Assembly (NCBI GenBank): GCA_014190215.1
Contig: BJGB01000006.1
Location: 1 to 32,818 of the forward strand
Length of the DNA: 32,818 nt
Direction: 5' to 3'
From: Actinomycetes bacterium
Lineage (GTDB): Bacteria > Actinomycetota > Acidimicrobiia > Acidimicrobiales > Ilumatobacteraceae
Under the pieces are notes generated by a model. That model ran no database searches. It was not told where the DNA came from and saw only the letters and a program-made list of their open reading frames with translations. This document shows positions 9,344 through 27,191 of this stretch, in pieces (the first letter of the stretch is position 1; each line of letters begins with the position of its first letter). A program made the position numbers and the translations under genes.

Positions 9344-10546
9344 TTAGATTCCGACGATGACAGACGAACCGTGCCCGAATAAGCCTTGATTGGCTGTGAT
9401 TCCAAGTTGAGCATTCTCGATCTGTCGACCGTGAGCCTGACCGCGTAATTGCCACACGAGTTCGCACACTTGAGCAATAGCTTGGGCCGGAATCGCCTCG
9501 CCAAAACAGGCCAAACCACCACTCGGGTTAACAGGAATGCGTCCACCCAAAGCTGTGGCTCCTGAACGTAGCAATCCTTCGGCCTCACCTGGAGCACACA
9601 ATCCTAAATGCTCATACCAATCGAGTTCGAGAGCTGTGGATAGATCGTACACCTCGGCCATCGACAAATCTTGGGGACCTACGCCGGCTTCTTCATAGGC
9701 GTCCCAACAAATTGAATCTTTGAAACCGCGCACTGGCGGCATGACCACAGCAGAGGAATCTGTGGCAAAGTCTGGCATCTCCAGAATCGTTTGAGGGTAC
9801 GTCGGCGTACTAGTGCTCACAGCCCTAATGCGCGGCACGCCCTTTAACGATCCCAGATGATGTTCTGCATAGGCGCGACTTGTCACGATCATCGCTGCTG
9901 CCCCATCGGATGTGGCGCAGATATCAAGTAGGCGCAGTGGATCACTGACAACTGGACTATTCAGCACATCTTCTACAGCGCTCTCTTTACGAAAGCGAGC
10001 ATTTGGATTATTGAGACCGTGCAACGAATTCTTCACTTTGACTTGCGCGAAATCCTCTGCGGTGGCACCGTAAAGATCCATGCGGCGGCGAGCGAATAGA
10101 GCAAAATACACAGGGTTAGTGGCCCCTAGCAAATGAAAGCGCAACCAATCAGGATCATTCTTACGATCTCCTCCGCCGACAGGGGCGAAAAATCCTTTGG
10201 GTGTGGTGTCAGCGCCGATCACCATCGCGACATCGCAAAAGCCAGCGAGAATTGAGGCCCGCGCCGCTTGTAAAGACTGTGAACCGCTGGCACACGCTGC
10301 GTAACTTGATGAGACACGAGCACCGGTCCAACCAAGTTTTTGAGCGAATGTTGCACCTGCAATGAAACCTGGATAGCCATTACGAATGGTGTCAGCACCA
10401 GCTACATACTGAACATCTTTCCATTCAATTCCGGCATCTTTGAGAGCGGCTCGCGCGGCCACCATCCCGTATTCGGTGAAATCACGACCCCACTTACCCC
10501 ACGGATGCATGCCCACACCAAGAACTACTAAATCACGATCATTCAT
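9344..10546 (-). CDS. thiolase-like lipid-transfer protein (Ltp/SCP-x type)
   Basis: A 400-residue thiolase-fold protein. C85 in YAACASGSQSL is the nucleophilic-cysteine position. AEVYDLSTALELDWYEHLG is the form of the NEAF region found in SCP-x/Ltp proteins. The usual GHP motif with its catalytic histidine is replaced by GLACFGEA, and the second cysteine loop (CxGGG) is replaced by NQGLFGHGSS. Such changes are known in Ltp2-type aldolases and related proteins that pair with DUF35 partners, so retro-aldol or other C-C cleavage is as likely as thiolysis. The start shares one base with the stop of the DUF35 gene (TGATG), so the two proteins are almost certainly a complex. Transcription should start at the operator-bearing promoter at 11009-11028. 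Confidence 0.88.
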   Translation of the reverse strand: MNDRDLVVLGVGMHPWGKWGRDFTEYGMVAARAALKDAGIEWKDVQYVAGADTIRNGYPGFIAGATFAQKLGWTGARVSSSYAACASGSQSLQAARASILAGFCDVAMVIGADTTPKGFFAPVGGGDRKNDPDWLRFHLLGATNPVYFALFARRRMDLYGATAEDFAQVKVKNSLHGLNNPNARFRKESAVEDVLNSPVVSDPLRLLDICATSDGAAAMIVTSRAYAEHHLGSLKGVPRIRAVSTSTPTYPQTILEMPDFATDSSAVVMPPVRGFKDSICWDAYEEAGVGPQDLSMAEVYDLSTALELDWYEHLGLCAPGEAEGLLRSGATALGGRIPVNPSGGLACFGEAIPAQAIAQVCELVWQLRGQAHGRQIENAQLGITANQGLFGHGSSVIVGI

Positions 10547-11016
10547 CAGGCACCTCCCACTTCGCAGGGTTGCACTGCGGGAGCCCAGACATAAATCATG
10601 TAATCGATTCCATCTTCGTTGTATAAAACATCAGTCTCTAACTGCATTCGCATACCGACTTTGAGATCAACCGCCAAAATACCTTTCGGGGCCTGCCCCA
10701 AGACGATGATTCCCTCGGTTTCTAACTGCACGGCGACCAAGGCGTAGGGCTCAAAAGGATCGCTGGCGCGATATGGCAGGGGCGGGGCGTAACGATTCTC
10801 GGCGTAACTCCAGACATTGCCGAAGCGCGATAGCGGCGTCGGCAACAATTCGTCGCTATCACACGAGGGATTAGGGCAAGCGCCGTCACGCGGAGGGAAT
10901 ACATAGGTTCCACACATGACGCATTTCGACCCGATTAAGTGAGGGTCTTGACCCAGTGTGAACCAACCTTCGATGGCCGGAATTTGAGAAGGTGGAACAG
11001 TAGTTATTTCTGACAC
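10546..11016 (-). CDS. DUF35 OB-fold/zinc-ribbon acyl-CoA partner protein
   Basis: A 156-residue DUF35 protein: an N-terminal helix, a rubredoxin-like zinc ribbon with C32, C35, C47 and C52 (CVMCG and CPNPSC), then an OB-fold with WSYAENRYAPP and YALVAVQLETEGIIVLGQAP. In steroid side-chain degradation such proteins bind Ltp2-like aldolases or MaoC-like hydratases and help hold acyl-CoA. It is translationally fused by TGATG to the thiolase-like gene. The start is GTG at 11016. A TAGTCT -10 hexamer six bases upstream and the absence of a Shine-Dalgarno sequence suggest a leaderless message. The palindromic operator at 11009-11025 covers this start codon. Confidence 0.9.
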   Translation of the reverse strand: MSEITTVPPSQIPAIEGWFTLGQDPHLIGSKCVMCGTYVFPPRDGACPNPSCDSDELLPTPLSRFGNVWSYAENRYAPPLPYRASDPFEPYALVAVQLETEGIIVLGQAPKGILAVDLKVGMRMQLETDVLYNEDGIDYMIYVWAPAVQPCEVGGA

Positions 11017-11025
11017 TCCGTCAGA
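11009..11025. promoter_or_regulatory. palindromic operator, site 1 (TetR-type)
   Basis: TCTGACACTCCGTCAGA is a perfect inverted repeat of TCTGAC around five bases. It covers the end of the -10, the expected transcription start and the first codons of the DUF35 gene, so a bound repressor would block that promoter. Three more copies occur at 13483, 18376 and 22060. Confidence 0.8.
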
Positions 11026-11028
11026 CTA
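11023..11028 (-). promoter_or_regulatory. -10 hexamer overlapping a stop codon
   Basis: On the minus strand TAGTCT lies six bases before the GTG at 11016. Its first three bases are the TAG stop codon of the acyltransferase gene (11026-11028). Confidence 0.5.
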
Positions 11029-13431
11029 ACCAACCAAGCCCGCCACGCGATCAAGCAAAGGAACAAAATCTCGGCCGATAATCTTGTCGAGATCCTCTTG
11101 TTGCATGTGCACACCATCTCCGCGCAAGTCGCCAGGGATGACCTCACTTGCCGTCACCATCCCTGCCCAATCAACAAGATGAATCTGTGGCCAGCGCGCA
11201 GCCCAACTCTGCATCACTGCATTCCACGCAAATACCCGGTCGGATTGAGAAAATGGAGCGCCTCCAAGTGCTCCACCGTGCACCTCGGGACTGTTCAGTA
11301 ACATCAGAGTGATCCCACGAACATCAAATTCACCCATCATCTGAGTCATCGCTACATCGTGAACTGCCAAAAACTTTGGATCACTCACTGTGTACCACTT
11401 TGGATCACCCAGATACATCTGCTCGGCCTGCTCAGGTATTGAGGCGATTGCCACAACAATTGACGGAGCGAAGGAATCTAGAGCAGTTTTCCAATCACCG
11501 TTCAGCGTGGGACAGTTTTCCATATCAAATTGGGTATCTTTCCACCAACGGACTTTGACCACCTCGACGAGTGGACAATTTCGACCACCAGCCCACAACA
11601 CGCTGTACCGATCCCCGACCGTGTCGTCTATGGCCGTGGCTACACCGAACGATGTTGAATCACCGATGACCATCACCCGAGTGCGATGATCCTGACCTTG
11701 CAATTCGGTGTCAATCAGCAGAAGTGCATCGCGCAATATCTCGGCTGAAGGTTGGTGCAGGGAAACCAAGTTTGAAATACGCATACCCGCATCAGCAATG
11801 TCATTGGAGAGCACGTCAATAGACCCATAATCAACAACAATCACTGGGGTCACACCGAGTGGCTGGATGATGTCAGCTACGACCTGCTCGCTCACCGAAA
11901 AAATTCTGCTGTCACCAAGGGGTTTTACTCCATCACTGAGATTCGGCAGAGCAGCAACAAGCGATGCGATTAATGATCGCTCGGCGGACCCGATTGACAA
12001 AACAACTAGATCAGGCTTCGACTCTGCAAGCAGTCTTTGCGCCATCGCCGCCAGCGATTCGCACTCACCGCTGGCAATCTCAGGCGGCCTAACTGGACAA
12101 CCTTCTCGAACTCCATTGACGATCTCAATCGGAATCTCATCCCCAATGGCTTGACGGATATCACTTTCAATGGGAGGTTCACTTCCAAGAACCAAAATCT
12201 TTAATGGTGCTCGCTGAGGCTCAATCACAGAGGTTGTCGGGGGCAATGTGAATTGCACAAATTCATCAGGGGCATCGACACCAGCGAGCGCCGAAGGACT
12301 AGCTGTCGAAATTCCTGTTACCGCAATCATCATCACAATCAATGAAACGACAAATGCCCAACTCGCCTGACGGCCACTCTTCAGGACCCACCGCAGCCGA
12401 ATCGGATTTTCAATCACTCGCGCAGAGATCAAACCAAGAGAAAGACTCACCAGCAGTCGAATCAGCGATAGCGCCAAACCGTCAAAACCGAGACGTTTCT
12501 CATTCAGCAAAACAAACACTGGCCAATGAAAGAGATACACCGAGTAACTCACTTTGCCCAGTTCAACCAACGGGCGAGATGACATCAAAGAACGAACGGG
12601 TCCGGGCACAAGAACAGCGACGATGAGCAGGCAGGAAATGATCGTGAAACCGGTCAGGCCACCTTGATATAGCCACCCATCACTGGCATGGACAGTGCCT
12701 GAGATATACACATATGCACAAAGAGCAATGATGCCGCCTACAGCAAAAAATGCTTGCAGGCGTTGAGTGATTTCCTTGCGCAGGGGAACTACTAGAGCCA
12801 GTAAAGCACCGATCAAAAACTCCGCTGCTCGGGTGTGCGTGCCGTAGTATGCCAAGTTTCGTGATGATGTGAGGATCATCGCACCTGAACTTAAAGCTGC
12901 TAACAGCATCAACGTCGGGAGCATGAGTCGTTTCCAGCGCATGAGCACTGCCATGAGTAACGGAAAAACAACATAGAACTGTTCTTCAATCGCCAGCGAC
13001 CAAAAATGTAGAAGCGGTGAAGGTGTTGATTCAAAGAGTTGGGCGTATGTCGTTCCCGCAGTGGCAAAGCGCCAGTTAGCGCCGTAACCGATGGTGGCCA
13101 AAAGATCCCCGCGTAATCGCCCTCCCGTAAACACCCCTGCCAAAGCAAGGACTGTCACTGCCAATACAACAACGATTGAACCGGGGGCTAGTCGTCTCAG
13201 ACGCCGCGACCAGAAATGTTTCAGGTCGACTCTCCCAGTTCGCGCATGATCGCTGATCATCAACTGAGTGATCAGGTACCCCGACAGAGTAAAGAACAAA
13301 GAGACGCCGAAAGAACCACCTGGGACTCGGGACCAACCAAGGTGGAACAACACGACGGTCATCACGGCTAATGCCCGAAGACCGTCAAGGCCAGCGACAT
13401 ATGGCAATCCGCTGTGCTCTTTTTCCGCCAC
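11026..13431 (-). CDS. acyltransferase-3 membrane protein with two SGNH-like units
   Basis: An 801-residue OafA-like O-acyltransferase that probably acetylates surface polysaccharide or peptidoglycan. Residues 10-380 form the acyltransferase-3 membrane domain: YVAGLDGLRALAV, H30 in FHLG, FWSRRLRRLAPG (73-84), FWSLAIEEQFY (143-153) and SVYLFHWPVF (297-306), with about ten hydrophobic helices. The outer part contains a complete SGNH esterase-like unit with GDS (590-592) and DGVH (D772, H775). Before it, at about 410-490, is a second, degenerate SGNH-like stretch: LKILVLGSEPP and then DLVVLSIGSAE. OafA proteins are usually about 650 residues, so this one is longer by roughly that extra unit. The start is GTG at 13431 with TATCCT six bases upstream. 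Its relation to the neighbouring catabolic genes is unclear. Confidence 0.9.
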   Translation of the reverse strand: MAEKEHSGLPYVAGLDGLRALAVMTVVLFHLGWSRVPGGSFGVSLFFTLSGYLITQLMISDHARTGRVDLKHFWSRRLRRLAPGSIVVVLAVTVLALAGVFTGGRLRGDLLATIGYGANWRFATAGTTYAQLFESTPSPLLHFWSLAIEEQFYVVFPLLMAVLMRWKRLMLPTLMLLAALSSGAMILTSSRNLAYYGTHTRAAEFLIGALLALVVPLRKEITQRLQAFFAVGGIIALCAYVYISGTVHASDGWLYQGGLTGFTIISCLLIVAVLVPGPVRSLMSSRPLVELGKVSYSVYLFHWPVFVLLNEKRLGFDGLALSLIRLLVSLSLGLISARVIENPIRLRWVLKSGRQASWAFVVSLIVMMIAVTGISTASPSALAGVDAPDEFVQFTLPPTTSVIEPQRAPLKILVLGSEPPIESDIRQAIGDEIPIEIVNGVREGCPVRPPEIASGECESLAAMAQRLLAESKPDLVVLSIGSAERSLIASLVAALPNLSDGVKPLGDSRIFSVSEQVVADIIQPLGVTPVIVVDYGSIDVLSNDIADAGMRISNLVSLHQPSAEILRDALLLIDTELQGQDHRTRVMVIGDSTSFGVATAIDDTVGDRYSVLWAGGRNCPLVEVVKVRWWKDTQFDMENCPTLNGDWKTALDSFAPSIVVAIASIPEQAEQMYLGDPKWYTVSDPKFLAVHDVAMTQMMGEFDVRGITLMLLNSPEVHGGALGGAPFSQSDRVFAWNAVMQSWAARWPQIHLVDWAGMVTASEVIPGDLRGDGVHMQQEDLDKIIGRDFVPLLDRVAGLVG

Positions 13432-13533
13432 ACTTGCAGGATAGTTCTGTGAGGTTAGCTACCGACATCCGACCTGACGATTTCTGACTGAGCGTCAGAT
13501 TTTTGCAATGCTCAGACTAAGGTTTGAAACGAT
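13432..13533. promoter_or_regulatory. divergent promoter region, acyltransferase / acyl-CoA dehydrogenase
   Basis: On the minus strand TATCCT (13438-13443) sits six bases before the GTG at 13431. On the plus strand TAAGGT (13518-13523) sits ten bases before the ATG at 13534, and the right arm of operator site 2 (GTCAGA, 13494-13499) occupies the -35 position with an 18-base spacer. The gap holds no gene. Confidence 0.5.
13483..13499. promoter_or_regulatory. palindromic operator, site 2 (TetR-type)
   Basis: TCTGACTGAGCGTCAGA is a perfect inverted repeat with the same arms as the other three sites. It overlaps the inferred -35 element of the acyl-CoA dehydrogenase operon. For the divergent acyltransferase it would lie about 50-70 bases upstream of the transcription start. 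Confidence 0.85.
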
Positions 13534-14682
13534 ATGGACCTCAACGAAACCGCCCAAGAATCGGCGTTCCGCTCCGAAGCCCGCACATGGCTTGAAGCCA
13601 ACGTGCCAACATCCGCGTTACCCAGTTTCGATACTGCCGAGGGATTCGCACTCCACCGCAAATGGGAACAGAAACTTTACGACGGAGGATGGTCCGCTGT
13701 CTCGTGGCCAGTTGAATACGGCGGCCGCGACGCCGACTACATCATGTGGCTGATTTTTGAAGAGGAGTACTACCGCAGCGGCGCTCCAGGTCGGGTCAAT
13801 CAGAACGGGATCTTTCTTCTCGGCCCCACCATCATGGAGGTGGGGACACAAGAACAAAAAGCAAAGTTCCTTCCATCTATGGCATCATCGGAAATCGTTT
13901 GGGCACAAGCATGGAGTGAACCAAATGCTGGAAGTGATATGGCCAGTATTCGCAGTAAGGCCACCCGTGACGGCGACGAATGGGTTCTTAATGGTCAAAA
14001 GATTTGGGCCAGTCGTGCGGTATGGGCGGACTGGTGTTTCGGCATCTTTCGTACCGACCCCACCGCCGAACGACATCGCGGATTGACATTTATTCTGTGT
14101 CCCCTTGACCTGCCAGGAATCACAGTGCGACCAATCGCACAACTTGACGGTGACACCGGTTTCGCCGAAATCTTTTTTGACGATGTACGCGTTCCCGTGG
14201 CGAACACTTTGGGTGAAGAAAATAAAGGTTGGGCTGTGGCAATGGCTACGGCTGGGTTTGAACGCGGCGTCAGCCTTCGCAGTCCTGCACGCTTCACCGA
14301 GGCTGTGAAGCGACTCATTCATCTCTGGAAAACTTATGGTGATCCCACTGATACTGCACTTTTCGATGCAGTTGCTGATGCGTGGATGCAAGCCGAGGGA
14401 TACCGACTGCATACGTATCAAACAGTGACGGGCATGTTGGAAGGTCGCACTATTGGTGCCGAAGCAAGTCTGAACAAGATCTTTTGGAGTGAGATGGATG
14501 TTCGGATCCACGAAATAGCCCTACAAATCCTTGGTCCTGAAGCCGAACGCATGGAGGGACCATCGCAGAGATGGGTGGACGGTTTCCTCTTCTCGCTGAG
14601 TGGCCCGATCTACGCCGGAACAAACGAAATTCAACGCAACATCATCGCCGACCGAGTTTTGCAGTTACCCAAAGGCATGTGA
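13534..14682 (+). CDS. acyl-CoA dehydrogenase, large subunit type (FadE-like)
   Basis: A 382-residue acyl-CoA dehydrogenase with the full three-domain layout. WSEPNAGSDMAS (about 127-138) is the FAD/substrate loop, NGQKIWASRAVWADW follows, and YAGTNEIQRNIIADRVL lies at the C-terminus. In medium-chain type enzymes the catalytic glutamate sits in YEGT; here it is alanine (YAGT), so the base must come from elsewhere, as in several actinobacterial FadE proteins. The enzyme would introduce a double bond in an acyl-CoA, passing electrons to FAD and electron-transfer flavoprotein. Only four bases separate it from the second dehydrogenase gene; such FadE pairs form alpha2beta2 enzymes for bulky, often steroid-derived acyl-CoAs. 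It is under operator site 2. Confidence 0.92.
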   Translation: MDLNETAQESAFRSEARTWLEANVPTSALPSFDTAEGFALHRKWEQKLYDGGWSAVSWPVEYGGRDADYIMWLIFEEEYYRSGAPGRVNQNGIFLLGPTIMEVGTQEQKAKFLPSMASSEIVWAQAWSEPNAGSDMASIRSKATRDGDEWVLNGQKIWASRAVWADWCFGIFRTDPTAERHRGLTFILCPLDLPGITVRPIAQLDGDTGFAEIFFDDVRVPVANTLGEENKGWAVAMATAGFERGVSLRSPARFTEAVKRLIHLWKTYGDPTDTALFDAVADAWMQAEGYRLHTYQTVTGMLEGRTIGAEASLNKIFWSEMDVRIHEIALQILGPEAERMEGPSQRWVDGFLFSLSGPIYAGTNEIQRNIIADRVLQLPKGM

Positions 14683-14686
14683 TCCC

Positions 14687-15649
14687 ATGAAGTTTTCATT
14701 TACCCACGACCAACGCCTCTTCGCCGAGGGACTGCGCGACTTATTGAGTAAACAATGCACGCCAACCCACGTACGTGAGGTGTGGGAGAACCAAACGGGC
14801 CATCTCCCAGATCTCTGGTCACGCCTTACCGAGATGGGCGTGTTGTCCATGTTGGTACCTGAATCGCAAGGTGGGATGGGCGGCACCTTGATTGACGCGG
14901 TGTTGCTATTCCAGGAACTTGGCCGTGCTGCTGTACCAGGACCAGTGCTTGAGCACATGGCCGTCGCAGCACCTGCTCTTGCTCACTCGCAATGGGCACC
15001 CGCACTCAACGACGGCACCACTATTGCAACTCTGTGGGTCGACACGGGTCCTTATGTTGCTCACGCACAGGTCGCCAATCTTGTTTTACGCAATGAAGCG
15101 GTCATCACTGGCTTTTCGTCAACCGATGTACACGGCATTGACGGTGGACGACAACTGTTCACAATTTCTGGCGGATCAGAAAGCGCCGCTTCAGCACAAG
15201 TCTTCGGCTTACCTGCCAGCGATGTGATGGCCCTTGCAAGCGCTGCATATTTGATCGGTGTCAGTGAATCGATGATTGAGGTTGCCGCAGAATACGCGCG
15301 CCAGCGTGAACAGTTTGGTAAGCCGATCGGCTCCTTTCAAGCAGTAAAGCACTTAATGTCTGATGCTCTTCTCAAAGTTGAATTCGCCAAGGCTCCCACC
15401 TACCGCGCCGCATGGAGTGCAAGCACGGGGTCACCAACAGCGTTACGCGATATCAGTATGGCTAAGGCTCTTGCGAGCGAAGCTGCTTATCGCGCCAGTC
15501 GCAGCACGATGCAGGTCCATGGTGGAATTGGCTACACCTGGGAAGCCGACCTACAACTGTGGATGAAAAAATCTTGGGCCTTGATGCGCGCCTACGGCGA
15601 TGCCACATACCATCGCCGCCGTGTCGGGGCCTCAGTGCTTCACGGGTAA
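14687..15649 (+). CDS. acyl-CoA dehydrogenase, small partner subunit type
   Basis: A 320-residue acyl-CoA dehydrogenase-family protein, shorter than the usual 380. The N-terminal helical domain is present (MKFSFTHDQRLFAEGLRDLL), the middle beta domain is reduced, and the C-terminal domain is well kept: REQFGKPIGSFQAVKH and then VHGGIGYTWEADLQLWMKK. The YEGT-type segment is replaced by GDATYHRRR. This is the usual look of the smaller subunit in FadE28/FadE29-like heterotetramers, where each subunit supplies part of the FAD site. I chose the ATG at 14687, four bases after the preceding stop. The upstream frame to 14600 lies inside the first dehydrogenase gene. The stop is two bases from the convergent SurE-like gene. 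Confidence 0.92.
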   Translation: MKFSFTHDQRLFAEGLRDLLSKQCTPTHVREVWENQTGHLPDLWSRLTEMGVLSMLVPESQGGMGGTLIDAVLLFQELGRAAVPGPVLEHMAVAAPALAHSQWAPALNDGTTIATLWVDTGPYVAHAQVANLVLRNEAVITGFSSTDVHGIDGGRQLFTISGGSESAASAQVFGLPASDVMALASAAYLIGVSESMIEVAAEYARQREQFGKPIGSFQAVKHLMSDALLKVEFAKAPTYRAAWSASTGSPTALRDISMAKALASEAAYRASRSTMQVHGGIGYTWEADLQLWMKKSWALMRAYGDATYHRRRVGASVLHG

Positions 15650-15651
15650 TT

Positions 15652-16530
15652 TCAATCAGTAAATGGTGAGCCACTAATTGGCAACATACTGATTGTGATG
15701 TAGCCATTTTGGAATCCGCTGACATCACCCGTTGGCACAACCGTTGAGGCACAATCATTGGCGTTGTAATCCGATGTTCCTATTGATTCGATTGGCGTTT
15801 CAATAACACCACGGACACTTAAACCAGCGGCGCATGAGGGTGCATTGACATTGGCAAATTCGGTGACGGTTTCGCCATCAGCGCGAGCCAACAATTCGTC
15901 ACGATGATCTTCAATCCATGCGACTACTGCACCAGCCGAAGTTGGGAAGTCAGGTGCCGCAGCGAGCCCTTGGCTGACTGCGACTGACGGAATATTGCGC
16001 GCCGCTGCTGCTCGAGCTGCGCCAACTGTTCCTGACAGGGGCACAATTTCCACACTGTAATTTTGACCGTTATTGATACCAGAGACAACAAGATCTGGGA
16101 CAAAGTCAATTCCACCCTGATCGATTGCCCAAATAATTGTGTCTGCCGGAAATCCAGCGACAGCCTTCGCTGGATAACCGCTCTTGGTCGTGGCATCGGC
16201 GACGACCAAGTCCCCAGCGGTTGTCTTGCCGCCAGTTCCACTTTGGTTCTCCAATGGGGCAACAACCGTCACGGTCACATTGTTCATTGCCAACAAAGAT
16301 TGCACCATCACATCAATGCCATCAGCACCCACCCCATCGTCATTAGTGACCAAAATGCGCAAGGGTTCGGGAGCACTCGTTGTCGTCGGCGCGTCAGTTA
16401 CTGGCGCTTCAGTCACTGGTACTTCAGTTACTGGTGCGACCGATGTGACCTTATTGCCATCACTTGAACAAGCCGTCACGCCCAATAGGCCGAATACTGC
16501 AACTCCGAATGTACGAGTCAAATTTTTCAT
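15652..16530 (-). CDS. SurE-like 5'/3'-nucleotidase lipoprotein
   Basis: A 292-residue protein. The N-terminus is a lipoprotein signal peptide with a lipobox ending GVTAC (Cys21), followed by a linker rich in Val, Thr and Pro built of five-residue repeats (VTEVP, VTEAP, VTDAP). From residue 57 it is SurE-like: VTNDDG with D64/D65, NQSGTGG with S97, SGINNGQN (150-157) and LSGTVGAARAA. SurE enzymes are metal-dependent phosphatases of nucleotides and normally cytoplasmic; here the domain should be anchored outside the membrane, perhaps to scavenge phosphate from nucleotides. A good Shine-Dalgarno sequence (GAGGGAG) precedes the ATG at 16530. It is not part of the neighbouring catabolic operons. 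Confidence 0.87.
   Translation of the reverse strand: MKNLTRTFGVAVFGLLGVTACSSDGNKVTSVAPVTEVPVTEAPVTDAPTTTSAPEPLRILVTNDDGVGADGIDVMVQSLLAMNNVTVTVVAPLENQSGTGGKTTAGDLVVADATTKSGYPAKAVAGFPADTIIWAIDQGGIDFVPDLVVSGINNGQNYSVEIVPLSGTVGAARAAAARNIPSVAVSQGLAAAPDFPTSAGAVVAWIEDHRDELLARADGETVTEFANVNAPSCAAGLSVRGVIETPIESIGTSDYNANDCASTVVPTGDVSGFQNGYITISMLPISGSPFTD
16396..16440. repeat. three 15-bp tandem repeats in the lipoprotein linker
   Basis: Three near-identical 15-base units (AGTTACTGGCGCTTC and variants) follow one another at 16396, 16411 and 16426. On the minus strand they encode the VTEVP/VTEAP/VTDAP repeats between the lipid anchor and the SurE-like domain. Copy number could vary between strains by slippage. 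Confidence 0.75.
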
Positions 16531-16621
16531 GATTTCTCCCTCTCACGCCGTGATTTAACCTTATGTCCTACCCGCCCGAGCAACGAGAAAGTCTGTCACT
16601 GTTCACCCGAGCGAGTAGAAC

Positions 16622-16627
16622 TATTAT
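16622..16627 (+). promoter_or_regulatory. candidate -10 hexamer for the TauE/SafE gene
   Basis: TATTAT lies directly before an in-frame GTG (16628) and 12 bases before the ATG at 16640. If used, transcription would start near 16634, excluding the GTG and favouring the ATG. Confidence 0.4.
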
Positions 16628-16639
16628 GTGACAGTTCAT

Positions 16640-17419
16640 ATGACAACACCTCGTCCGCCCGTTCGGACCTCCCTGGTGATCGTACTTGGACTCGGTGCCG
16701 GTCTGTTGTCTGGACTGTTTGGAGTCGGCGGGGGCATTCTGGTCGTCCCGGTCCTCGTTCTCCTACTCAAGTTTGATCAACGACTCGCCAATGGCACATC
16801 TCTTGGTGCAGTTCTGCCGATCTCCATTTCCAGTTTGCTGACTTATTGGAGTCATGGCAACGTTGACTGGCACATGGCCTTGTGGTTAGCAGTCGGAGCA
16901 TTGGCAGGGGCAATCCTCGGAACAAAATGGATTCACATCTTGCCCAAAAAAACTCTCGGCTATCTATTCGCAGCGATGCTCATGATCACCGCAGTGCGTC
17001 TTTTTATTCCGCTCAACGCCGATGGACGTTCGACACTCACCATATTTTCTGCTCTCGCTCTACTTTTCATTGGCCTCGTCACTGGGACATTGGCTGGGCT
17101 ACTGGGCATTGGAGGCGGCGTGGTGATGGTCCCTGCTATGGCTGTTTTCTTTAGTGAACTCAGCGTCGTCGCCAAGGGAACCTCCGCTGCTGTGATCATT
17201 CCAACATCAATCATGGGCACCTGGCGCAATTGGAAAACCAACAATGTTGATCTTAAAGTTGCTGCTCTCGTCGGCTTTTCGGGTATTCCAGCGGCAATCG
17301 CCGGCGGAATTATTGCCGATCACATGTCACAGGATCTGTCAAACATCTTGTTCGCTTCACTAGTACTCGTTGTGGCCCTGCGTATGATTTGGGACTTACA
17401 AAAAAATCCGAGTGACTGA
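16640..17419 (+). CDS. TauE/SafE family membrane permease
   Basis: A 259-residue inner-membrane protein with about eight hydrophobic helices. It shows the two internal repeats typical of TauE/SafE (sulfite exporter/DUF81) proteins: LLSGLFGVGGGILVVPVL near the N-terminus and LAGLLGIGGGVVMVPAMAVF in the middle. Members move small organosulfur or carboxylate anions such as sulfite, sulfoacetate or taurine-derived compounds; the substrate here is unknown. I use the ATG at 16640; the in-frame GTG at 16628 adds four residues and touches the inferred -10. It ends one base before the convergent LLM gene. Confidence 0.9.
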   Translation: MTTPRPPVRTSLVIVLGLGAGLLSGLFGVGGGILVVPVLVLLLKFDQRLANGTSLGAVLPISISSLLTYWSHGNVDWHMALWLAVGALAGAILGTKWIHILPKKTLGYLFAAMLMITAVRLFIPLNADGRSTLTIFSALALLFIGLVTGTLAGLLGIGGGVVMVPAMAVFFSELSVVAKGTSAAVIIPTSIMGTWRNWKTNNVDLKVAALVGFSGIPAAIAGGIIADHMSQDLSNILFASLVLVVALRMIWDLQKNPSD

Positions 17420-17420
17420 A

Positions 17421-18326
17421 TTAGCGGCGCGAGGCAACAACATCTGCCAATCGGTCGAGCATCGCCGGATCGCTTGTGGCGGGAACGATAATGAATTCAT
17501 CGGCCCCTTCAGCTTCAACCTTGTCAAGCAAATCAACGAGACGCGAAGGTTCGTAGAGATTCATTGCTTCTGCCAAAGAGCGGGCGAAGTCTGGAGAGAA
17601 GACTTGTAAATATGCCGCTGCGAAGTCACGCAAATTCTCTGCGGCGTTGGGTCCTAACGACACGAATGAACCGGTCACCAGTCGCGGCTTATCGGAGCGA
17701 CCTGCCGTCGTCCATGCATCTCGCGTCGCCCTAAAGAGTCGGCCCGCTTCTTGGGCATCGCCCAAAAGGGTGAAACCACTCACTCCAATCGCCCATTGAG
17801 CAGCACGAGCCAAAGACTTTGGACCCATCGCCGAAGCCAAAATCGGCGGCCCTCCAACCTGCATGGGAAGTGGCCCAACTTGTTCCCCGTCGGCAGCTGT
17901 CCCACCAGACCACAAACGCTTCACCTCATGTACCGAGTCGTCAAGGCGCTGATGCCGACCCGCAAAGAGCGAATCTAAAGCGGCATAGTCCTGTTGACGA
18001 CCACCAACTCCAACGGCGACCTCCACCCGACCACCGGACACGACATCCATGGACGCCAACTCTTTGGCTACTAGGGCTGGAGCGTGCCAAGGAAGCACCG
18101 CCACATTGACCAAAACTCGCACCCTTTCGGTCAAAACACTGGCCGCCGAACACAGCGTAAAACCATCGAGATTGTGAAAAGTGATCCGCTCGCCAGCAGA
18201 AATGCTGGAAAATGGGCCTTGATCAATTCCCCGACACCAGGCGATGAGCCGATCTCGGTCAAGACCAGGTGCCATTTGAGGCAAAGCCACTCCAACCGTC
18301 ATCGCCTGTTTCGTTGCGTCACTCAT
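17421..18326 (-). CDS. LLM class (F420-dependent-type) oxidoreductase
   Basis: A 301-residue luciferase-like TIM barrel. The N-terminal MTVGVALPQMAPGLDRDRL strand, VLVNVAVLPWHAPALVAKELASMDVVSGGRVEVAVGVGG block (split across about residues 70-110) and the VGGPPILASAMGPKSLARAA loop are typical. It would reduce or oxidise a small substrate with F420 or flavin. I chose the ATG at 18326 over a TTG at 18347; TACGCT lies seven bases upstream on the minus strand, as for a leaderless message. It is divergent from the amidohydrolase gene across 88 bases holding operator site 3, so it could share the regulon. Confidence 0.9.
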   Translation of the reverse strand: MSDATKQAMTVGVALPQMAPGLDRDRLIAWCRGIDQGPFSSISAGERITFHNLDGFTLCSAASVLTERVRVLVNVAVLPWHAPALVAKELASMDVVSGGRVEVAVGVGGRQQDYAALDSLFAGRHQRLDDSVHEVKRLWSGGTAADGEQVGPLPMQVGGPPILASAMGPKSLARAAQWAIGVSGFTLLGDAQEAGRLFRATRDAWTTAGRSDKPRLVTGSFVSLGPNAAENLRDFAAAYLQVFSPDFARSLAEAMNLYEPSRLVDLLDKVEAEGADEFIIVPATSDPAMLDRLADVVASRR

Positions 18327-18414
18327 ATAGCGAAGCGTAGGTCCCAAACTCCTCTTTCGCCCATTCCACGCTCAATCTGACACACCGTCAGAAAGTAGTG
18401 CTACCCTCAAGACC
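18327..18414. promoter_or_regulatory. divergent leaderless promoters, LLM / amidohydrolase
   Basis: On the minus strand TACGCT (18334-18339) precedes the ATG at 18326 by seven bases. On the plus strand TACCCT (18402-18407) precedes the ATG at 18415 by seven bases. Neither gene has a Shine-Dalgarno sequence. Operator site 3 lies between them. Confidence 0.5.
18376..18392. promoter_or_regulatory. palindromic operator, site 3 (TetR-type)
   Basis: TCTGACACACCGTCAGA is a perfect inverted repeat. It ends nine bases before the TACCCT hexamer and so covers the -35 and spacer region of the amidohydrolase promoter (about -39 to -23 from the expected start). Confidence 0.85.
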
Positions 18415-19623
18415 ATGCGTGAACTGCCCAAAATTATCTCCGTTGACGACCACGTCACAGAACCTGCAACCGTGTGGTCTGATCGCCTCCCCCAGAAGTA
18501 CGCCGACGTCGGTCCTCGAGTACACCGCCTGCCCGTTAAAGAAATGACGTTCGTCGGTGGCACCTTTACTGCGATTCCTGGAGAGAAAGGTGATGAGGGT
18601 CCTCTCGCCGACTGGTGGTTCTATGAAAACCTCCGTCGCCCCTTGACACGCCTTGATACTGCTGTGGGTTTCAGTCGCGATGAAGTCATCTTGGCTGGCA
18701 TCACCTACGACGAGATGCGCCAAGGCAGTTACAAAACTAAAGAACGTCTTGAAGATATGGACACCGCCGGCATCGAAGCGTCATTTTGCTTCCCGACTTT
18801 CCCACGCTTTTGTGGGCAAACTTTTTACGAGGCACAAGACAAAGAATTAGCCATGCTCTGCGTGCGCGCCTACAACGACTGGATGGTTGAAGAATGGTGT
18901 GGCGAATCAGGTGGCCGGATGTTGCCGTTGTGCATCGTCCCATTATGGGATCCCGTCGCCGCTGCTGCTGAAGTTCGGCGCAATGCGGCGCGCGGAGTAC
19001 ACGCAGTGTGCTTCAGCGAGATTCCGACCAATCTTGGGTTGCCCAGTATCCACGACAAGGATGGTTTCTGGTTGCCATTCTTTGATGCATGCAATGAGAC
19101 GCACACCACGATCAATATGCATATCGGTTCGGGTTCAAAAATGCCCAGCACGTCCCCTGATGCACCAGCTGCCGTTGGTTCAACATTGACATTTGCCAAT
19201 TGCTGTTTCAGCATGGTCGACTGGTTGATGAGCGGATTGTTTACCCAGTTCAAAGATCTCAAGATTGCCTACAGCGAAGGTCAAATTGGCTGGATTCCTT
19301 ACATCCTTGAGCGCGCCAATGTGGTCTGGGAAGAAAATCGTGGTTGGGGTGGAATTGCCGACAAGGTTCTTGAACGGCCAAGTGAATTATTCAAGAAGCA
19401 TATTTACGGTTGCTACTTTGACGATCCACACGGTCTGCGTTCGCTTGAGGAAATCGGCGTGGACAACGTCACCTTCGAATGCGACTACCCACACTCCGAC
19501 TCCACTTGGCCACATACCGCCAAGATCGCACTTGAGCAGACGATGAACCTCAGCGATGAAGTGGTGTACAAACTGATGCGCGGCAATGCCATCAAGTTGT
19601 ACAGCATTAGTCATCTCAAATAA
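18415..19623 (+). CDS. amidohydrolase-2 family metal-dependent hydrolase/decarboxylase
   Basis: A 402-residue TIM-barrel protein of the amidohydrolase-related group that includes ACMSD and gamma-resorcylate decarboxylase. ISVDDHVTEP (8-17) holds the D-x-H-type metal motif, INMHIGSGS in the middle supplies another histidine, and the late FECDYPHSDSTWP holds the catalytic aspartate. These enzymes hydrolyse or decarboxylate cyclic carboxylic acids. Members are common in actinobacterial steroid and aromatic clusters, mostly without known substrates. The gene starts at ATG 18415 under operator site 3 and is followed after three bases by the FadD3-like ligase, so the two form an operon. Confidence 0.88.
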   Translation: MRELPKIISVDDHVTEPATVWSDRLPQKYADVGPRVHRLPVKEMTFVGGTFTAIPGEKGDEGPLADWWFYENLRRPLTRLDTAVGFSRDEVILAGITYDEMRQGSYKTKERLEDMDTAGIEASFCFPTFPRFCGQTFYEAQDKELAMLCVRAYNDWMVEEWCGESGGRMLPLCIVPLWDPVAAAAEVRRNAARGVHAVCFSEIPTNLGLPSIHDKDGFWLPFFDACNETHTTINMHIGSGSKMPSTSPDAPAAVGSTLTFANCCFSMVDWLMSGLFTQFKDLKIAYSEGQIGWIPYILERANVVWEENRGWGGIADKVLERPSELFKKHIYGCYFDDPHGLRSLEEIGVDNVTFECDYPHSDSTWPHTAKIALEQTMNLSDEVVYKLMRGNAIKLYSISHLK

Positions 19624-19626
19624 CAA

Positions 19627-21186
19627 GTGCTGACTATCGCCCAGGTTGTGCGGGAGACCGTGCGCTTCGGAGATCGTGAAGCCCTCGTTGACGCTGATCG
19701 CCGGTGGTCATTTTCTGAAATAGTCGAGGCCGTTGAAGACGCCGCCAGGTCCTTCATTGCTTTGGGCTTACAACACGGTGATCGCCTAGCAATCTGGGCG
19801 CCGAACAGTGCCGAATGGATTTTTTCTGCGCTTGGTGCGCAAATCGTCGGTGGAGTTCTAGTTCCCATCAACACACGCTTCAAGGCTTCAGAGGCTGCCT
19901 ATGTTCTAAACCACAGTGGCGCTAAATTTCTCCTATGCGACAATAAATTTCTCGGCCAAAACTACGCGCAAGAACTCCGTGACAGTCGTATCACCCTCCC
20001 CAGCCTTGAGCACGTCATTGATTTTTCAGGGGCCACGGACGCTCAATGCACACCTTGGCAAGATTTTCTTGCGCAAGGTCATTCAGTACCGCTCAAGGCG
20101 GTGCATGAACGCGAGAAAAAAATCATGCCGTCGGATTTATGCGACATCATCTTCACATCTGGGACAACTGGCAAACCTAAAGGCGTCATGTCACGTCACG
20201 ATCAAACCATTCGGGTGTTCACTGAGTGGTCATCCATTGTTGGATTGAGTGAGTCCGATCGGTACCTAATCGTCAATCCCTTTTTTCACACATTCGGTTA
20301 TAAGGCTGGATTTCTTGCGTGTTTGTTGAGTGGCGCGACCATGATTCCTGTCCCAATATTTGATGTCCCAACTGTCCTCAAAATCGTCAACCAAGAAAAA
20401 ATCACTGCGTTACCTGGTCCGCCAACTTTGTACCTCAGTATTCTCAATCACCCCGAGAGAAACAATTTTGACCTTTCGTCTTTGCGCTTGGCGGTGACTG
20501 GTTCAGCAGCCGTTCCAGTAGAGATGATTCGGCGCATGCGTCAAGAACTCACATTCACCGTCATCCTTACCGCTTATGGACTCACCGAATCTACGGGCAC
20601 GATCACGATGTGTCGCGCTGATGATGATCCATTCACAATCTCGACAACAAGTGGTCGAGCGATCAGTGACGTTGAAGTGCGAGTCGTGGACCAGAATAAT
20701 GCTGAGGTTGCGCGTGGGACGGCCGGTGAAATCATCTGTCGCGGATACAACGTAATGCCTGGCTATTTCGAGAATCCTGAAGCCACAGCTCAAGCCATTG
20801 ACGAAGATGGATTTTTACATACTGGTGACATAGGAATCATGGACGCGAACGGCTATCTGGCGATTACTGATCGCATCAAGGACATGTTCATCGTCGGAGG
20901 GTTCAATGCCTACCCTGCTGAAATTGAAAATACTCTGCTGACCCATCCCTCAATCGCCCAGGTAGCAGTTGTTGGACAACCCGATGATCGTCTCGGAGAA
21001 GTCGGCCATGCTTTCGTGGTGCTGCGCACAGAGCAAACGGTGAGTGAGCAAGAACTCATCGAGTGGTCGCGCCAATGTATGGCCATTTACAAGATCCCGC
21101 GGCACTTCACATTTGTCGATCTGCTACCGCTCAACGCCAGTGGCAAAGTGCTCAAGTATGAGCTTCGCGCACGCACTCGCGGCTAG
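19627..21186 (+). CDS. acyl-CoA ligase, FadD3-like
   Basis: A 519-residue AMP-forming acyl-CoA synthetase. FTSGTTGKPKG (176-186) is the ATP loop, LTAYGLTES the A5 motif, HTGDIG the A7 motif, and K507 in NASGKVLKYEL the catalytic lysine. Stretches such as NPFFHTFGYKAGFLACLLSG and ITALPGPPTLYLSILNHPER closely resemble, from memory, mycobacterial FadD3, which activates HIP, the two-ring propanoate left after steroid ring A/B removal. I therefore think a bicyclic or similarly bulky carboxylic acid is the substrate, but that is inference. The start is GTG at 19627, three bases after the amidohydrolase stop. The convergent TauD-type gene ends ten bases away. Confidence 0.9.
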   Translation: MLTIAQVVRETVRFGDREALVDADRRWSFSEIVEAVEDAARSFIALGLQHGDRLAIWAPNSAEWIFSALGAQIVGGVLVPINTRFKASEAAYVLNHSGAKFLLCDNKFLGQNYAQELRDSRITLPSLEHVIDFSGATDAQCTPWQDFLAQGHSVPLKAVHEREKKIMPSDLCDIIFTSGTTGKPKGVMSRHDQTIRVFTEWSSIVGLSESDRYLIVNPFFHTFGYKAGFLACLLSGATMIPVPIFDVPTVLKIVNQEKITALPGPPTLYLSILNHPERNNFDLSSLRLAVTGSAAVPVEMIRRMRQELTFTVILTAYGLTESTGTITMCRADDDPFTISTTSGRAISDVEVRVVDQNNAEVARGTAGEIICRGYNVMPGYFENPEATAQAIDEDGFLHTGDIGIMDANGYLAITDRIKDMFIVGGFNAYPAEIENTLLTHPSIAQVAVVGQPDDRLGEVGHAFVVLRTEQTVSEQELIEWSRQCMAIYKIPRHFTFVDLLPLNASGKVLKYELRARTRG

Positions 21187-21196
21187 TTCGCGAAAA

Positions 21197-22018
21197 CTAC
21201 ACGTTATAAATTGTTGCCCGCCGCGCGCGTCGACGTTGACCGTGATAATCATTCACGGCGTAATGCATGGTGTACCTGTTATCCCATAACGCCGCGTCAC
21301 CTGATGTCCACTTCCATCTCGTTTGTAATTCAGGTCGCTCCGAAGTCTGATGAATTACTTCCAGGAGATGCATGCTTTCGAGTGGTTTCAAACCGACTAT
21401 TGAATTTGTCCAGCCTCGATTCACAAATAAGACTTTCTCTCCCGTTGAATGGTGCTCGCGTACCATGGGGTGTACTGCTGTTCCGGTTGCGGGAGGACGT
21501 CCGTGATTTGCATTGAGACCACCGATGAATTCGCGTATCGGCGCGCTCAAGGCAGCAAGAGCTTTAATTTGATTCGACCACATAGTGTCACCCCCACTTT
21601 GGGCAGCGATCTCCATGACAAAAAGAGAGCCGATGGGAGGGTTCTCCGTGAAAGTGACATCTGTGTGCCACACTGCCGTTTGACGCGGATCGGCCTTGAG
21701 ATCGGTGTCCAGAAGTAAAATTTCTGGAAAGCCATCGCGAGCCAATGAAGGAGCATTGCGATAGTCGCCTCCTGCCTCGGTGGTGGCAGCAATGTGATTA
21801 CCAAAACAGCGCGCCAAGCGGACCTGATCTGCTGGCGTTAAATGAGCCCCAGGGAAGAAAAGCACCAGATATTGAGCCCAAGCGGCAACCAATTCGACGG
21901 CTACTTCGGCCAGATCTTGGTCACTCAATTTGGCCACTTGAAGTCCCTCAACAACTGCCCCGAGGGAACCCGGCAATGGGGAAATCGAAATCTGCGAGCG
22001 AGAAATGAGACTGGTCAT
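21197..22018 (-). CDS. TauD/TfdA-type Fe(II)/2-oxoglutarate dioxygenase
   Basis: A 273-residue member of the taurine/2,4-D dioxygenase family. H118 and D120 in WHTDVTF and H252 in MHYAVNDY form the iron triad, and the Arg-rich RRRARRATI near the end provides the 2-oxoglutarate-binding arginine. These enzymes hydroxylate a substrate and often release sulfite, an amine or an ether-linked group. The substrate is unknown. I use the ATG at 22018 rather than a TTG at 22033; TACAGT six bases upstream on the minus strand indicates a leaderless start. It diverges from the ADH operon, with operator site 4 in between, so it may be co-regulated. Confidence 0.92.
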   Translation of the reverse strand: MTSLISRSQISISPLPGSLGAVVEGLQVAKLSDQDLAEVAVELVAAWAQYLVLFFPGAHLTPADQVRLARCFGNHIAATTEAGGDYRNAPSLARDGFPEILLLDTDLKADPRQTAVWHTDVTFTENPPIGSLFVMEIAAQSGGDTMWSNQIKALAALSAPIREFIGGLNANHGRPPATGTAVHPMVREHHSTGEKVLFVNRGWTNSIVGLKPLESMHLLEVIHQTSERPELQTRWKWTSGDAALWDNRYTMHYAVNDYHGQRRRARRATIYNV

Positions 22019-22125
22019 ATAAGGACTGTACAACCCAGAAAGTTACAGGGAAAGACCTATCTGACTGACCGTCAGATTTTCGTAGTGCCTGCACTAGAGT
22101 TCAGATACCGATTGAAAGGGGTCCC
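22019..22125. promoter_or_regulatory. divergent promoter region, dioxygenase / ADH operon
   Basis: TACAGT on the minus strand (22025-22030) serves the dioxygenase. On the plus strand TAGAGT (22095-22100) lies 18 bases after the right arm of operator site 4, exactly as at 13494-13523. The ADH gene then has a leader of about 20 bases with GAAAGGGG five bases before its ATG. Confidence 0.55.
22060..22076. promoter_or_regulatory. palindromic operator, site 4 (TetR-type)
   Basis: TCTGACTGACCGTCAGA is a perfect inverted repeat. Its right arm takes the -35 place of the promoter that drives the operon ending in the TetR gene, so autoregulation is expected. Confidence 0.87.
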
Positions 22126-23229
22126 ATGAAGGGCATTGTTTATAACGGATCGACGACCAATTTGGTTGACGGACTTTCACTGCGAGCACCAGGACCACGC
22201 GAGGTCATCGTGCAGGTTGCTGCTGCTGGTCTGTGCCACAGCGACATCTCCTATATGGGCGGCATGTACCCCGTTCCCTCACCTGGAGTCTGCGGTCACG
22301 AAGCTGCTGGAGTTGTTGCAGAAGTCGGTAATGCCGTCACTCATGTGCAACCTGGCGACCATGTCATCATCGCTACTTTGGCGGCTTGTGGCTTTTGCCA
22401 ATACTGCATGGATGGACGTCCCACCGCATGTCGCGCCACTCTCGGCAATGCCAGCACTCCATTCACACTTGACGGTGAGGCAATTTACAACTTTGCCGCA
22501 ACTAGTGCTTTTGCTGAACGAACTTTGGTTCGCGATGTTCAGTGCGTGAAGATCCCCAAAGATGTGCCATTGACTTCTGCTGCTCTTGTCGGTTGTGGAG
22601 TTGTCACTGGCATGGGTGCGGTATTCAATCGCGCCAATGTGAAGCGCGGTCAATCGGCTTTGGTCTTTGGTGTTGGTGGTGTGGGACTCAATGTCATCCA
22701 GGCTCTCAAAGTTCAAGGTGCTACCACGATCATTGCTGTGGACACTGTTCCAGAAAAGGAAGCCTTAGCCATGAAATTCGGCGCCACGCACTTCCTTGAT
22801 GGAAAGACCGAAGACATCGTGGCTGCAGTGGGAGCAATCATGCCGCACAATGAAACGACGCCACGTGGTCCATTTAATTCGGGTGGAGTGAATTGGGCCT
22901 TTGACTGTGTCGCACATCCGAGCGTGACTTACAACGCTCTCGAATGCCTCGACTGGGAAGGCACCGTTGTTGTCATCGGTGTCAGCAGTCAGACTGCAAA
23001 GTTTGAAGGTCTGTACACGCGTCTCACTCAAGTCGATCGCGGCATTATTGGCTGTCGCTACGGGACAATCAGTCCCCAGCGTGATATCCCTCGAATCATT
23101 GAACTCTACCGACGCGGCGAAATCCTCCTCGACGAACTTGTGAGCGCCACTTTCCCCGTTGATCATTGGCAAGATGCCGTACACGGCCTAGAAAGCGGAA
23201 CGCTCGCCCGCGCCGTGATTACATTCTAA
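22126..23229 (+). CDS. zinc-dependent alcohol dehydrogenase
   Basis: A 367-residue medium-chain dehydrogenase of the class III-like group. The catalytic zinc ligands are C37, H58 and probably C157. The structural zinc site is C88, C91, C94 and C102 (CGFCQYCMDGRPTAC). The NAD loop is GVGGVG (182-187), and D206 favours NAD over NADP. It would oxidise a primary or secondary alcohol to an aldehyde or ketone, probably an intermediate of the same pathway as the following ligase. It is the first gene of the five-gene operon under operator site 4, with a clear Shine-Dalgarno sequence. Confidence 0.93.
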   Translation: MKGIVYNGSTTNLVDGLSLRAPGPREVIVQVAAAGLCHSDISYMGGMYPVPSPGVCGHEAAGVVAEVGNAVTHVQPGDHVIIATLAACGFCQYCMDGRPTACRATLGNASTPFTLDGEAIYNFAATSAFAERTLVRDVQCVKIPKDVPLTSAALVGCGVVTGMGAVFNRANVKRGQSALVFGVGGVGLNVIQALKVQGATTIIAVDTVPEKEALAMKFGATHFLDGKTEDIVAAVGAIMPHNETTPRGPFNSGGVNWAFDCVAHPSVTYNALECLDWEGTVVVIGVSSQTAKFEGLYTRLTQVDRGIIGCRYGTISPQRDIPRIIELYRRGEILLDELVSATFPVDHWQDAVHGLESGTLARAVITF

Positions 23230-26559: not shown

Positions 26560-27191
26560 TGACTGATGATGTCCTCGCCGCTGATGGCAGGGTCATCGGA
26601 ACACGGGCGATTGCAACACGTCGACGCCTGCTTGATGCAACAGCAAAGTTGCTCACTGAACAAGGCATCTTGGACCTCCGCGTCGTTGACATCACTCGTG
26701 ATATCGGTTCGTCTCCTGCAACCTTCTATCAGTATTTCAATGATGTTGATGAAGCAATTCTGGAATTGGCTAAGGAAGCAACCGAAGATGAAAAACCGTT
26801 AGTCAGGCTCCTACAACCAGGTTGGAATAAAAAAACAGGACTCGAACAAGCCCATCATTTTGTTGACGCCTATATGGTTTTTTGGGATACCCACCACGCT
26901 GTCTTGCGCGCTCGCAATCTCAAGGCCGAAGAGGGAAACCGCCACTTTCGCGCCGTGCGGACCGAAGCAAACTTGTTGATCATGAATGCTCTCGCGGCGA
27001 TGGTGACCGAAGGAGTCAATGCAAAACGACTTCCCGACTCCCTTGATCCATTCACCACCGCTGCTGCCGTCGTTGCCATGTGCGAACGACTCTTAGCTTT
27101 CCAGCCAGAAATGGCCAAGCGCGGATCTGATAAGAACGCAATTCGCAATACCTTGGCGACATTGCTCTACGGGGCGCTCACTGGCCACTGA
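26559..27191 (+). CDS. TetR family transcriptional regulator
   Basis: A 210-residue TetR-type repressor. The N-terminal DNA-binding domain covers about residues 18-65 with the helix-turn-helix at 41-60 (VVDITRDIGSSPATFYQYF). The rest is the all-helical ligand-binding and dimerisation domain. It is the fifth gene of the operon starting at 22126 and is tied to the previous gene by a TAATG overlap. I infer that it binds the four TCTGAC-N5-GTCAGA palindromes, represses all four units including its own, and is released by an acyl-CoA or free acid of the pathway. Binding is not shown by sequence. The LLM gene converges on it with five bases between stops. Confidence 0.93.
   Translation: MTDDVLAADGRVIGTRAIATRRRLLDATAKLLTEQGILDLRVVDITRDIGSSPATFYQYFNDVDEAILELAKEATEDEKPLVRLLQPGWNKKTGLEQAHHFVDAYMVFWDTHHAVLRARNLKAEEGNRHFRAVRTEANLLIMNALAAMVTEGVNAKRLPDSLDPFTTAAAVVAMCERLLAFQPEMAKRGSDKNAIRNTLATLLYGALTGH

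Follow-up and report, generated by a model that had tools for sequence, protein, structure and literature searches.

A 17-bp palindrome that tracks a TetR-family gene and marks a candidate steroid-type catabolic regulon in Acidimicrobiales

Results

The window (i.e., the whole stretch of 32,818 nucleotides that was analyzed) is contig C6 of a 2.2-Mb draft genome, G000, which consists of 259 contigs and is 80.8% complete. Its genes include acyl-CoA dehydrogenases, acyl-CoA ligases, SDR oxidoreductases, and a TetR-family regulator (Table 1); we take the second of the SDR oxidoreductases to be Hsd4A-like. A pattern scan of the whole window located four exact copies of TCTGAC-N5-GTCAGA, with the positions and cores that the first-pass annotation had given, and no fifth copy in the window with up to two mismatches allowed. 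That annotation had also placed all four at promoters, and their placement at gene starts bears this out, with the correction that the first overlaps the GTG start of the DUF35 gene. Since sites 3 and 4 lie between divergent genes, the LLM-class and TauD-like genes may also be targets. Site 4 heads a gene run of which the TetR gene is the fifth member. Between sites 1 and 2 is a gene that, by eye, encodes an acyltransferase-3/SGNH-type membrane protein (11026-13431). Considered within the window alone, the number of palindromes is mildly unusual, as 4 of 100 shuffled windows gave at least four matches with up to two mismatches (mean 1.43).

Table 1. Genes and candidate operator sites discussed in the text (window positions).
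Feature	Position	Strand	Basis or remark
Lipid-transfer-protein-type thiolase	9344..10546	-	NCBIfam PRK06059, 743.7 bits, cut-off 424
DUF35 / ChsH2-type OB-fold partner protein	10546..11016	-	Pfam zf-ChsH2 and OB_ChsH2_C
Operator site 1 (candidate)	11009..11025	.	TCTGAC-ACTCC-GTCAGA; overlaps GTG start of DUF35 gene
Operator site 2 (candidate)	13483..13499	.	Core TGAGC; ATG of acyl-CoA dehydrogenase 34 bp downstream
Acyl-CoA dehydrogenase	13534..14682	+	Best PDB sequence match 4x28 (2e-50)
Acyl-CoA dehydrogenase, second of pair	14687..15649	+	Best model IpdE2, 168 bits, below cut-off 450
LLM-class oxidoreductase	17421..18326	-	By eye; divergent from site 3; possible target
Operator site 3 (candidate)	18376..18392	.	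Core ACACC; amidohydrolase ATG 22 bp downstream; divergent genes either side
Amidohydro_2 hydrolase	18415..19623	+	Pfam
FadD3-family acyl-CoA ligase	19627..21186	+	743.6 bits, cut-off 657
TauD-like dioxygenase	21197..22018	-	By eye; divergent from site 4; possible target
Operator site 4 (candidate)	22060..22076	.	Core TGACC; ADH ATG 49 bp downstream; divergent genes either side
Alcohol dehydrogenase (ADH)	22126..23229	+	Best family NDMA-dependent ADH, below cut-off
Acyl-CoA ligase	23250..24806	+	No family over cut-off among matches listed
SDR oxidoreductase	24803..25639	+	Model search
SDR oxidoreductase	25657..26559	+	PRK07791, 459 bits, cut-off 373
TetR-family regulator, candidate palindrome binder	26559..27191	+	TetR_N and TetR_C_38

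The palindrome across the draft genome

The draft genome contains 12 exact copies of the palindrome, where 0.13 would be expected under an i.i.d. model (Poisson P of at least 12, about 4e-20) and a control pattern, read backward, gave 0. The eight copies outside the window are on contigs C21 (four), C3, C74, C88, and C205. With one mismatch allowed, there are 22 such places and again 0 for the control. All 12 exact sites are at gene starts once the called starts of EchA20 and of an aldehyde dehydrogenase on C21 are shifted to a later ATG, and with these adjusted starts they range from 8 bp inside to 67 bp upstream of the nearer start codon. The later ATG of EchA20 is supported by the NCBIfam match, which starts at residue 24; that of the aldehyde dehydrogenase is our own judgment, and genes were called by our own script. 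Two exact sites overlap the start codon, i.e., those of the DUF35 gene and of an ECH gene on C21 (C21:11806). Only A or T occurs as the center base of the 12 sites, and their flanking bases tend toward T...A. The first-pass annotation had proposed a genome-wide scan as a check against random copies, and this distribution is far from random; we consider it nearly certain that the regulon is real.

Ten further sites appeared when one mismatch was allowed. Six are within called genes, including two in the first 11 codons (on C41 and C164), where the called gene start may be wrong, and those on C65 and C202 precede catabolic-type genes (acyl-CoA dehydrogenase or amidohydrolase-like, named by eye). 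Contig C18 carries two intergenic near-copies of the form TCTGATCCG(A/T)AGTCAGA (L050:4183-4199 and 6761-6777), before neighboring genes of non-catabolic look by eye; these are perhaps the box of another regulator.

Genes behind the sites

Recognizable catabolic enzymes lie downstream of 10 of the 12 exact sites. A run on C21 encodes a steroid 3-ketoacyl-CoA thiolase (609 bits, cut-off 515), the lipid-transfer protein PRK07855 (688 bits, cut-off 469), a P450 with CYP125 structures as its best PDB matches (8.8e-141), a protein that matches ChsH2/ChsH1 structures (1e-30) and the ChsH2 DUF35 domain (6e-22), a MaoC protein, and two dehydrogenases. We take this single run to resemble, in its order, what is called the igr operon in mycobacteria. 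On C3, the site-headed unit comprises an enoyl-CoA hydratase (PRK07938; 424 bits, cut-off 260), which we take as EchA20, a CoA transferase matching PDB 6co6 (8.5e-95), which we take as IpdA, its partner gene alongside (Pfam), and a FabK-like flavoprotein, the term also used for IpdC (PMC5380842). Based on the gene identities in the window and on C21 and C3, the box precedes both side-chain-type genes (CYP125, FadA5, ChsE/ChsH, and Ltp2) and ring C/D-type genes (EchA20-IpdABC and FadD3), and the putative targets thus resemble both of the mycobacterial steroid regulons.

Counting same-strand runs, with inferred operon ends and without divergent genes of uncertain role, 35 genes on six contigs stand behind the 12 sites. 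The first-pass annotation had called the set a catabolic regulon, a description that gene homology now refines to steroid-type side-chain and ring C/D catabolism, but its estimate of about eleven genes was too small. The first gene behind the site at C74:2279 has no Pfam match, and an SDR comes next. The site at C21:17684 has on one side a gene that, by eye, encodes a substrate-binding protein and on the other a gene with MFS and ABC ATPase domains (Pfam; L045:16156-19978); these transporter genes are a candidate uptake system within the regulon. A site in G300 (L113) likewise adjoins ABC ATPase genes and a binding-protein-like gene.

Enzymes for rings A and B gave a different picture. KshA had no clear find by model search in 24 genomes of the window's genus, where three borderline partial matches reached its cut-off (G004, G011, and G012). 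An HsaC-type domain occurred in 0 of the 6 genus genomes checked, as well as in neither G315 nor G051, and no KstD-like protein stood out in a PF00890 search of 6 genus genomes. These searches had positives elsewhere, i.e., KshA in other genomes of the order and the HsaC-type domain in G161 and G300. The PF00890 search, which also covered G300 and other genomes of the genus, was followed by model naming of matches in G000, G051, G315, and G161; among these, a KstD-like protein is present in G161 alone, at 331.8 bits against a model cut-off of 789. The top matches of G315 and G161 were identified as L-aspartate oxidase, and those checked in G000 and G051, along with the second in G315, were SdhA. 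Since KshA, KstD, and the HsaC-type domain were not found in the genus by these searches, the window organism may import steroids that are already partly degraded, or some other polycyclic; "steroid-type" as used here denotes gene homology rather than a demonstrated substrate.

Site number tracks the TetR gene

The first-pass annotation had singled out the TetR protein as the one to test for binding, and site number was found to track its presence across genomes. In a set of 61 genomes, at least two sites were present in 29 of 31 with the TetR (TetR+) vs. 2 of 30 without it (TetR-; Fisher 9e-13). Within the window's genus, 20 of 24 genomes encode it and have 5-15 sites each; the remaining four have 1, 0, 1, and 5 sites, the last being G022, which is 60% complete. 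When 298 genomes of the order were searched, 90 had the TetR (E<=1e-10), and it was present in 63 of the 66 genomes with at least two sites (Fisher 7e-39), the exceptions being G040, G112, and G172. The mean number of exact sites was 4.97 in the 79 genomes with a TetR match at E<=1e-25 vs. 0.17 in the 208 without a match. Twelve families contain both TetR states, and TetR+ genomes had more sites in 10 of these, fewer in 0, and equal numbers in 2. Because the genomes are related, the P-values overstate independence. Zero exact sites were found in 16 of the 79 genomes with a good match; 13 of these could be tested at ipdA, where 8 have a site with one or two mismatches and five have none within two mismatches (G047, G081, G129, G205, and G289).

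Presence of the pathway alone was considered as a cause of this co-occurrence, and tests conditioned on ipdA speak against it. A search with residues 1-60 of the IpdA homologue matched 118 of the 298 genomes, and dropping weak matches in G136 and G211 left 116 ipdA+ genomes, including 82 of the 90 TetR+ genomes. At least two sites were present in 59 of the 82 TetR+ members of this set vs. 2 of the 34 TetR- members, the latter mostly of families f26, f34, and f35. The best palindrome match within 1.3 kb upstream of ipdA was then taken from each of 115 genomes (the window's own genome not included), which became 80 TetR+ and 34 TetR- genomes as the stretch from G229 was too short. Matches with 0, 1, 2, 3, 4, and 5 mismatches numbered 21, 27, 16, 4, 8, and 4 in TetR+ genomes and 1, 1, 1, 6, 24, and 1 in TetR- genomes, so that a site with up to two mismatches precedes ipdA in 64 of 80 vs. 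3 of 34 (Fisher 6e-13). At up to one mismatch, the true arms were found in 60% of TetR+ and 5.9% of TetR- genomes, while 40 shuffled-arm controls averaged 0.1% in both groups, with the highest single arm at 1.3% and 5.9%, respectively; therefore, TetR- genomes do no better than the worst control.

The location of the ipdA sites is also constrained. The 64 TetR+ sites with up to two mismatches all fall into two ranges of distance ahead of the ipdA match, 781-949 bp and 30-110 bp, and in G315, G237, and G300 the longer gap is filled by echA20. Such a site occurs in 21 of 26 TetR+ families and 3 of 12 TetR- families. Within family f34, an exact site stands 51 bp ahead of the ipdA match in each of the two TetR+ genomes, whose TetR matches are weak (1e-22 to 1e-23); the best site in the six TetR- genomes has at least three mismatches. 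Sites without a detected TetR were seen in G112 (exact), G043 (one mismatch), and G263 (two mismatches), and 16 of the 80 TetR+ genomes lack a site within two mismatches, 4 of them with less than 1.3 kb of contig. The 64 sites give the consensus YCTGAYG-N3-CRTCAGR, although true variation may be larger because they were picked by likeness to the exact arms.

Conservation of the sites before orthologous genes, anticipated in the first-pass annotation, was also observed in other families at further targets. In G315, sites with up to one mismatch precede EchA20-IpdABC, DUF35-thiolase, and a dehydrogenase-SDR-TetR run, as well as genes of both amidohydrolase 2 types and a C205-type dehydrogenase; unlike the window genome, G315 also has a site between a C74-type ligase and a hydratase. 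In G161 and G237, sites recur at the ipdA, SDR-TetR, C74 unknown-protein, and amidohydrolase 3 targets.

Relatives of the TetR protein in named genomes were collected as the best 80 loci, seeded with the peptide PATFYQYF, which is thus invariant among them by construction. They come from Ilumatobacteraceae/Acidimicrobiales MAGs, Deltaproteobacteria, Myxococcota, Pseudomonadales, other Gammaproteobacteria, and Streptomyces. The neighborhoods of 68 of these loci were tested, the other 12 being close relatives or actinobacterial MAGs. A site with up to one mismatch was near the TetR homologue at 22 of 31 actinobacterial MAG loci (24 of 43 when the 12 are included, 2 of which have a site), at 8 of 12 Proteobacteria/Myxococcota loci (5 exact), and at 15 of 25 Streptomyces loci (2 exact). 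Shuffled-arm controls at the same mismatch level averaged 1.6-4.1%, and since single arms reached 16-33%, this test is weaker than that upstream of ipdA. Several Streptomyces loci have a pair like TCTGACGGTCCGTCATA and TCTGATGTACCGTCAGA, which in L188 lies between acyl-CoA dehydrogenase-like and thiolase-like genes. Besides the pair close to the TetR homologue, with a spacing of about 60-70 bp, Streptomyces loci L187, L204, L205, and L209 (also L189) have two further near-palindromes 27 bp apart, consisting of a GCTGAC...GTCAGA copy and a second one. Four MAG records titled Bifidobacterium breve (L136, L137, L157, and L160) encode TetR proteins of 48-86% identity; these titles look wrong.

The TetR protein

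The protein has the N-terminal HTH domain TetR_N (PF00440; 27.3 bits, Pfam cut-off 24) and the C-terminal domain TetR_C_38 (70.7 bits, cut-off 23.9), and is modeled with the all-helical TetR fold (pLDDT 93.8). An alignment of 25 sequences from a whole-protein search (A1) showed residues A54, F56, Y57, Q58, Y59, and F60 to be invariant in or just after the predicted recognition helix (53-59), along with D9, R11, G14, and R16 around the start of the first helix. The closest fold match is EthR (3tp3; Z 18.9, rmsd 2.9, 189 aligned), below which are the lipid regulators FasR, DesT, and FadR, in part solved with acyl-CoA ligands. These acyl-CoA-responsive proteins share the overall fold and control lipid regulons, which suggests an acyl-CoA-type ligand for the window TetR; however, they are only 12-20% identical to it in structural alignments. 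They also use other boxes. Likeness of the modeled fold points only weakly to a lipid-type or CoA-thioester ligand. KstR2 (4w97) matched well below the best (Z 14.9, rmsd 3.9, 185 aligned, 15% identity) and is absent from the 39 phmmer matches of the window TetR (E<=0.1). The curated KstR model NF033703 (cut-off 280 bits) gave no match to the window TetR at E<=0.01 and 17.8 bits for its G038 orthologue; KstR is also absent among the fold matches listed, an absence that excludes nothing.

Discussion

KstR (Rv3574), found in mycobacteria and their relatives, is likewise a TetR-type regulator with a palindromic box in many promoters, and it controls side-chain genes of the type found here on C21. 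However, the KstR box is 14 bp long, TnnAACnnGTTnnA (PMC1995591), and the 17-bp window sites do not fit it, differing in both arms and spacing. KstR2 controls echA20, ipdAB, ipdC, and fadD3 and responds to HIP-CoA (PMC5380842), and it is a repressor with negative autoregulation (PMC3068626). In the window genome, the homologues of echA20-ipdABC and of fadD3 are both in units headed by the palindrome, and the window TetR would also be autoregulated. The KstR2 box differs in that it is given as the 14-bp AnCAAGnnCTTGnT (PMC3068626), which the window sites fit in neither arms nor spacing. The first-pass annotation had held the motif to be unlike both boxes, and these published forms agree. SRTF1 of Pimelobacter/Nocardioides simplex is also a TetR-family, steroid-responsive regulator with a palindromic site; its site is described as 22 bp beside ketosteroid dehydrogenase genes (PMC7062782), and it is by this length and setting that we tell it apart. 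Among the papers listed in literature searches for the box or its regulator, none describes the TCTGAC-N5-GTCAGA box, judged by titles and the beginnings of abstracts.

The sites occur at gene starts, are conserved before the orthologous ipdA operon, and track the TetR gene, also among ipdA+ genomes. We judge it likely that the palindrome is the operator of the TetR protein, which would act as a ligand-released repressor over a steroid-type regulon. The operator, in a fuller form of about YCTGAYG-N3-CRTCAGR, would be covered by a TetR dimer sitting over or beside the promoters of genes for side-chain beta-oxidation and ring C/D opening, i.e., about 35 genes in the draft genome including the regulator's own operon. 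A pathway intermediate, most likely a CoA thioester, would enter the C-terminal pocket and release the protein from the operator. From the comparative data, the TetR very probably binds the palindrome; physical contact, like repression, autoregulation, and the ligand, is our inference.

The operator might instead be bound by another co-occurring regulator, such as a KstR-like TetR or an unlinked factor, with the window TetR a passenger. Such an arrangement would fit the link of the TetR with ipdA itself and the few genomes that have sites and no detected TetR, but among ipdA+ genomes the TetR still separates those that bear sites, at ipdA and overall, from those that do not. Nor do KstR-like proteins have the right distribution. 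TetR proteins with some match to the KstR model occur in all 61 of 61 genomes (E<=1e-3), and its cut-off is passed in 0, with G000 having three weak matches, none over 280 bits. Closer KstR-like proteins (E<=1e-20) are absent from the 24 genus genomes, G031, and G051, a group in which many sites per genome are the rule, and G057, which does have one and is ipdA+ and TetR-, has only 1 site. Since this distribution is mismatched with that of the sites, a KstR-like protein was rejected as the binder, and as inspection by eye of the gene runs headed by sites in G000 showed no further regulator, we consider a different binder improbable.

It is equally doubtful that the TetR, once bound, activates its targets or has a dual role instead of simply repressing them. 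Site-to-start distances, from start-codon overlap to 67 bp upstream with promoters that are predicted only, would leave room for such a role, but the sites that overlap start codons (11009 and C21:11806) fit a block to transcription, and the closest functional analogues, KstR and KstR2, are repressors (PMC1995591, PMC3068626). Repression by the TetR, relieved by a CoA-thioester ligand, is our best guess. A chance or structural/repeat element without regulatory role, with which the unexceptional count in the window alone would be compatible, is hardly credible given the genome-wide excess over expectation and control and the conservation before the ipdA operon, which is strong evidence against it.

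More broadly, we lean slightly toward the view that this is a further, undescribed master regulator of steroid-type catabolism, in which a single TetR clade and a 17-bp box join side-chain and ring C/D modules, widespread in the Acidimicrobiales, shared with MAGs of Myxococcota, Deltaproteobacteria, and Pseudomonadales, and in a genus whose pathway came without the known ring A/B enzymes in our searches. If true, one switch would unite modules that mycobacteria split between KstR and KstR2. The findings also suggest that steroid-type catabolism outside mycobacteria is wired by another box and regulator. They give a probable regulator-operator pair for the breakdown of sterol-like carbon in freshwater actinobacteria, most of them uncultured and with substrates that are not easily guessed, and they make the window TetR a candidate sensor protein for steroid-derived CoA thioesters. 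The box allows the regulon and the pathway's unknown genes, including amidohydrolases, LLM oxidoreductases, SDRs, and the candidate importer, to be read from genomes alone.
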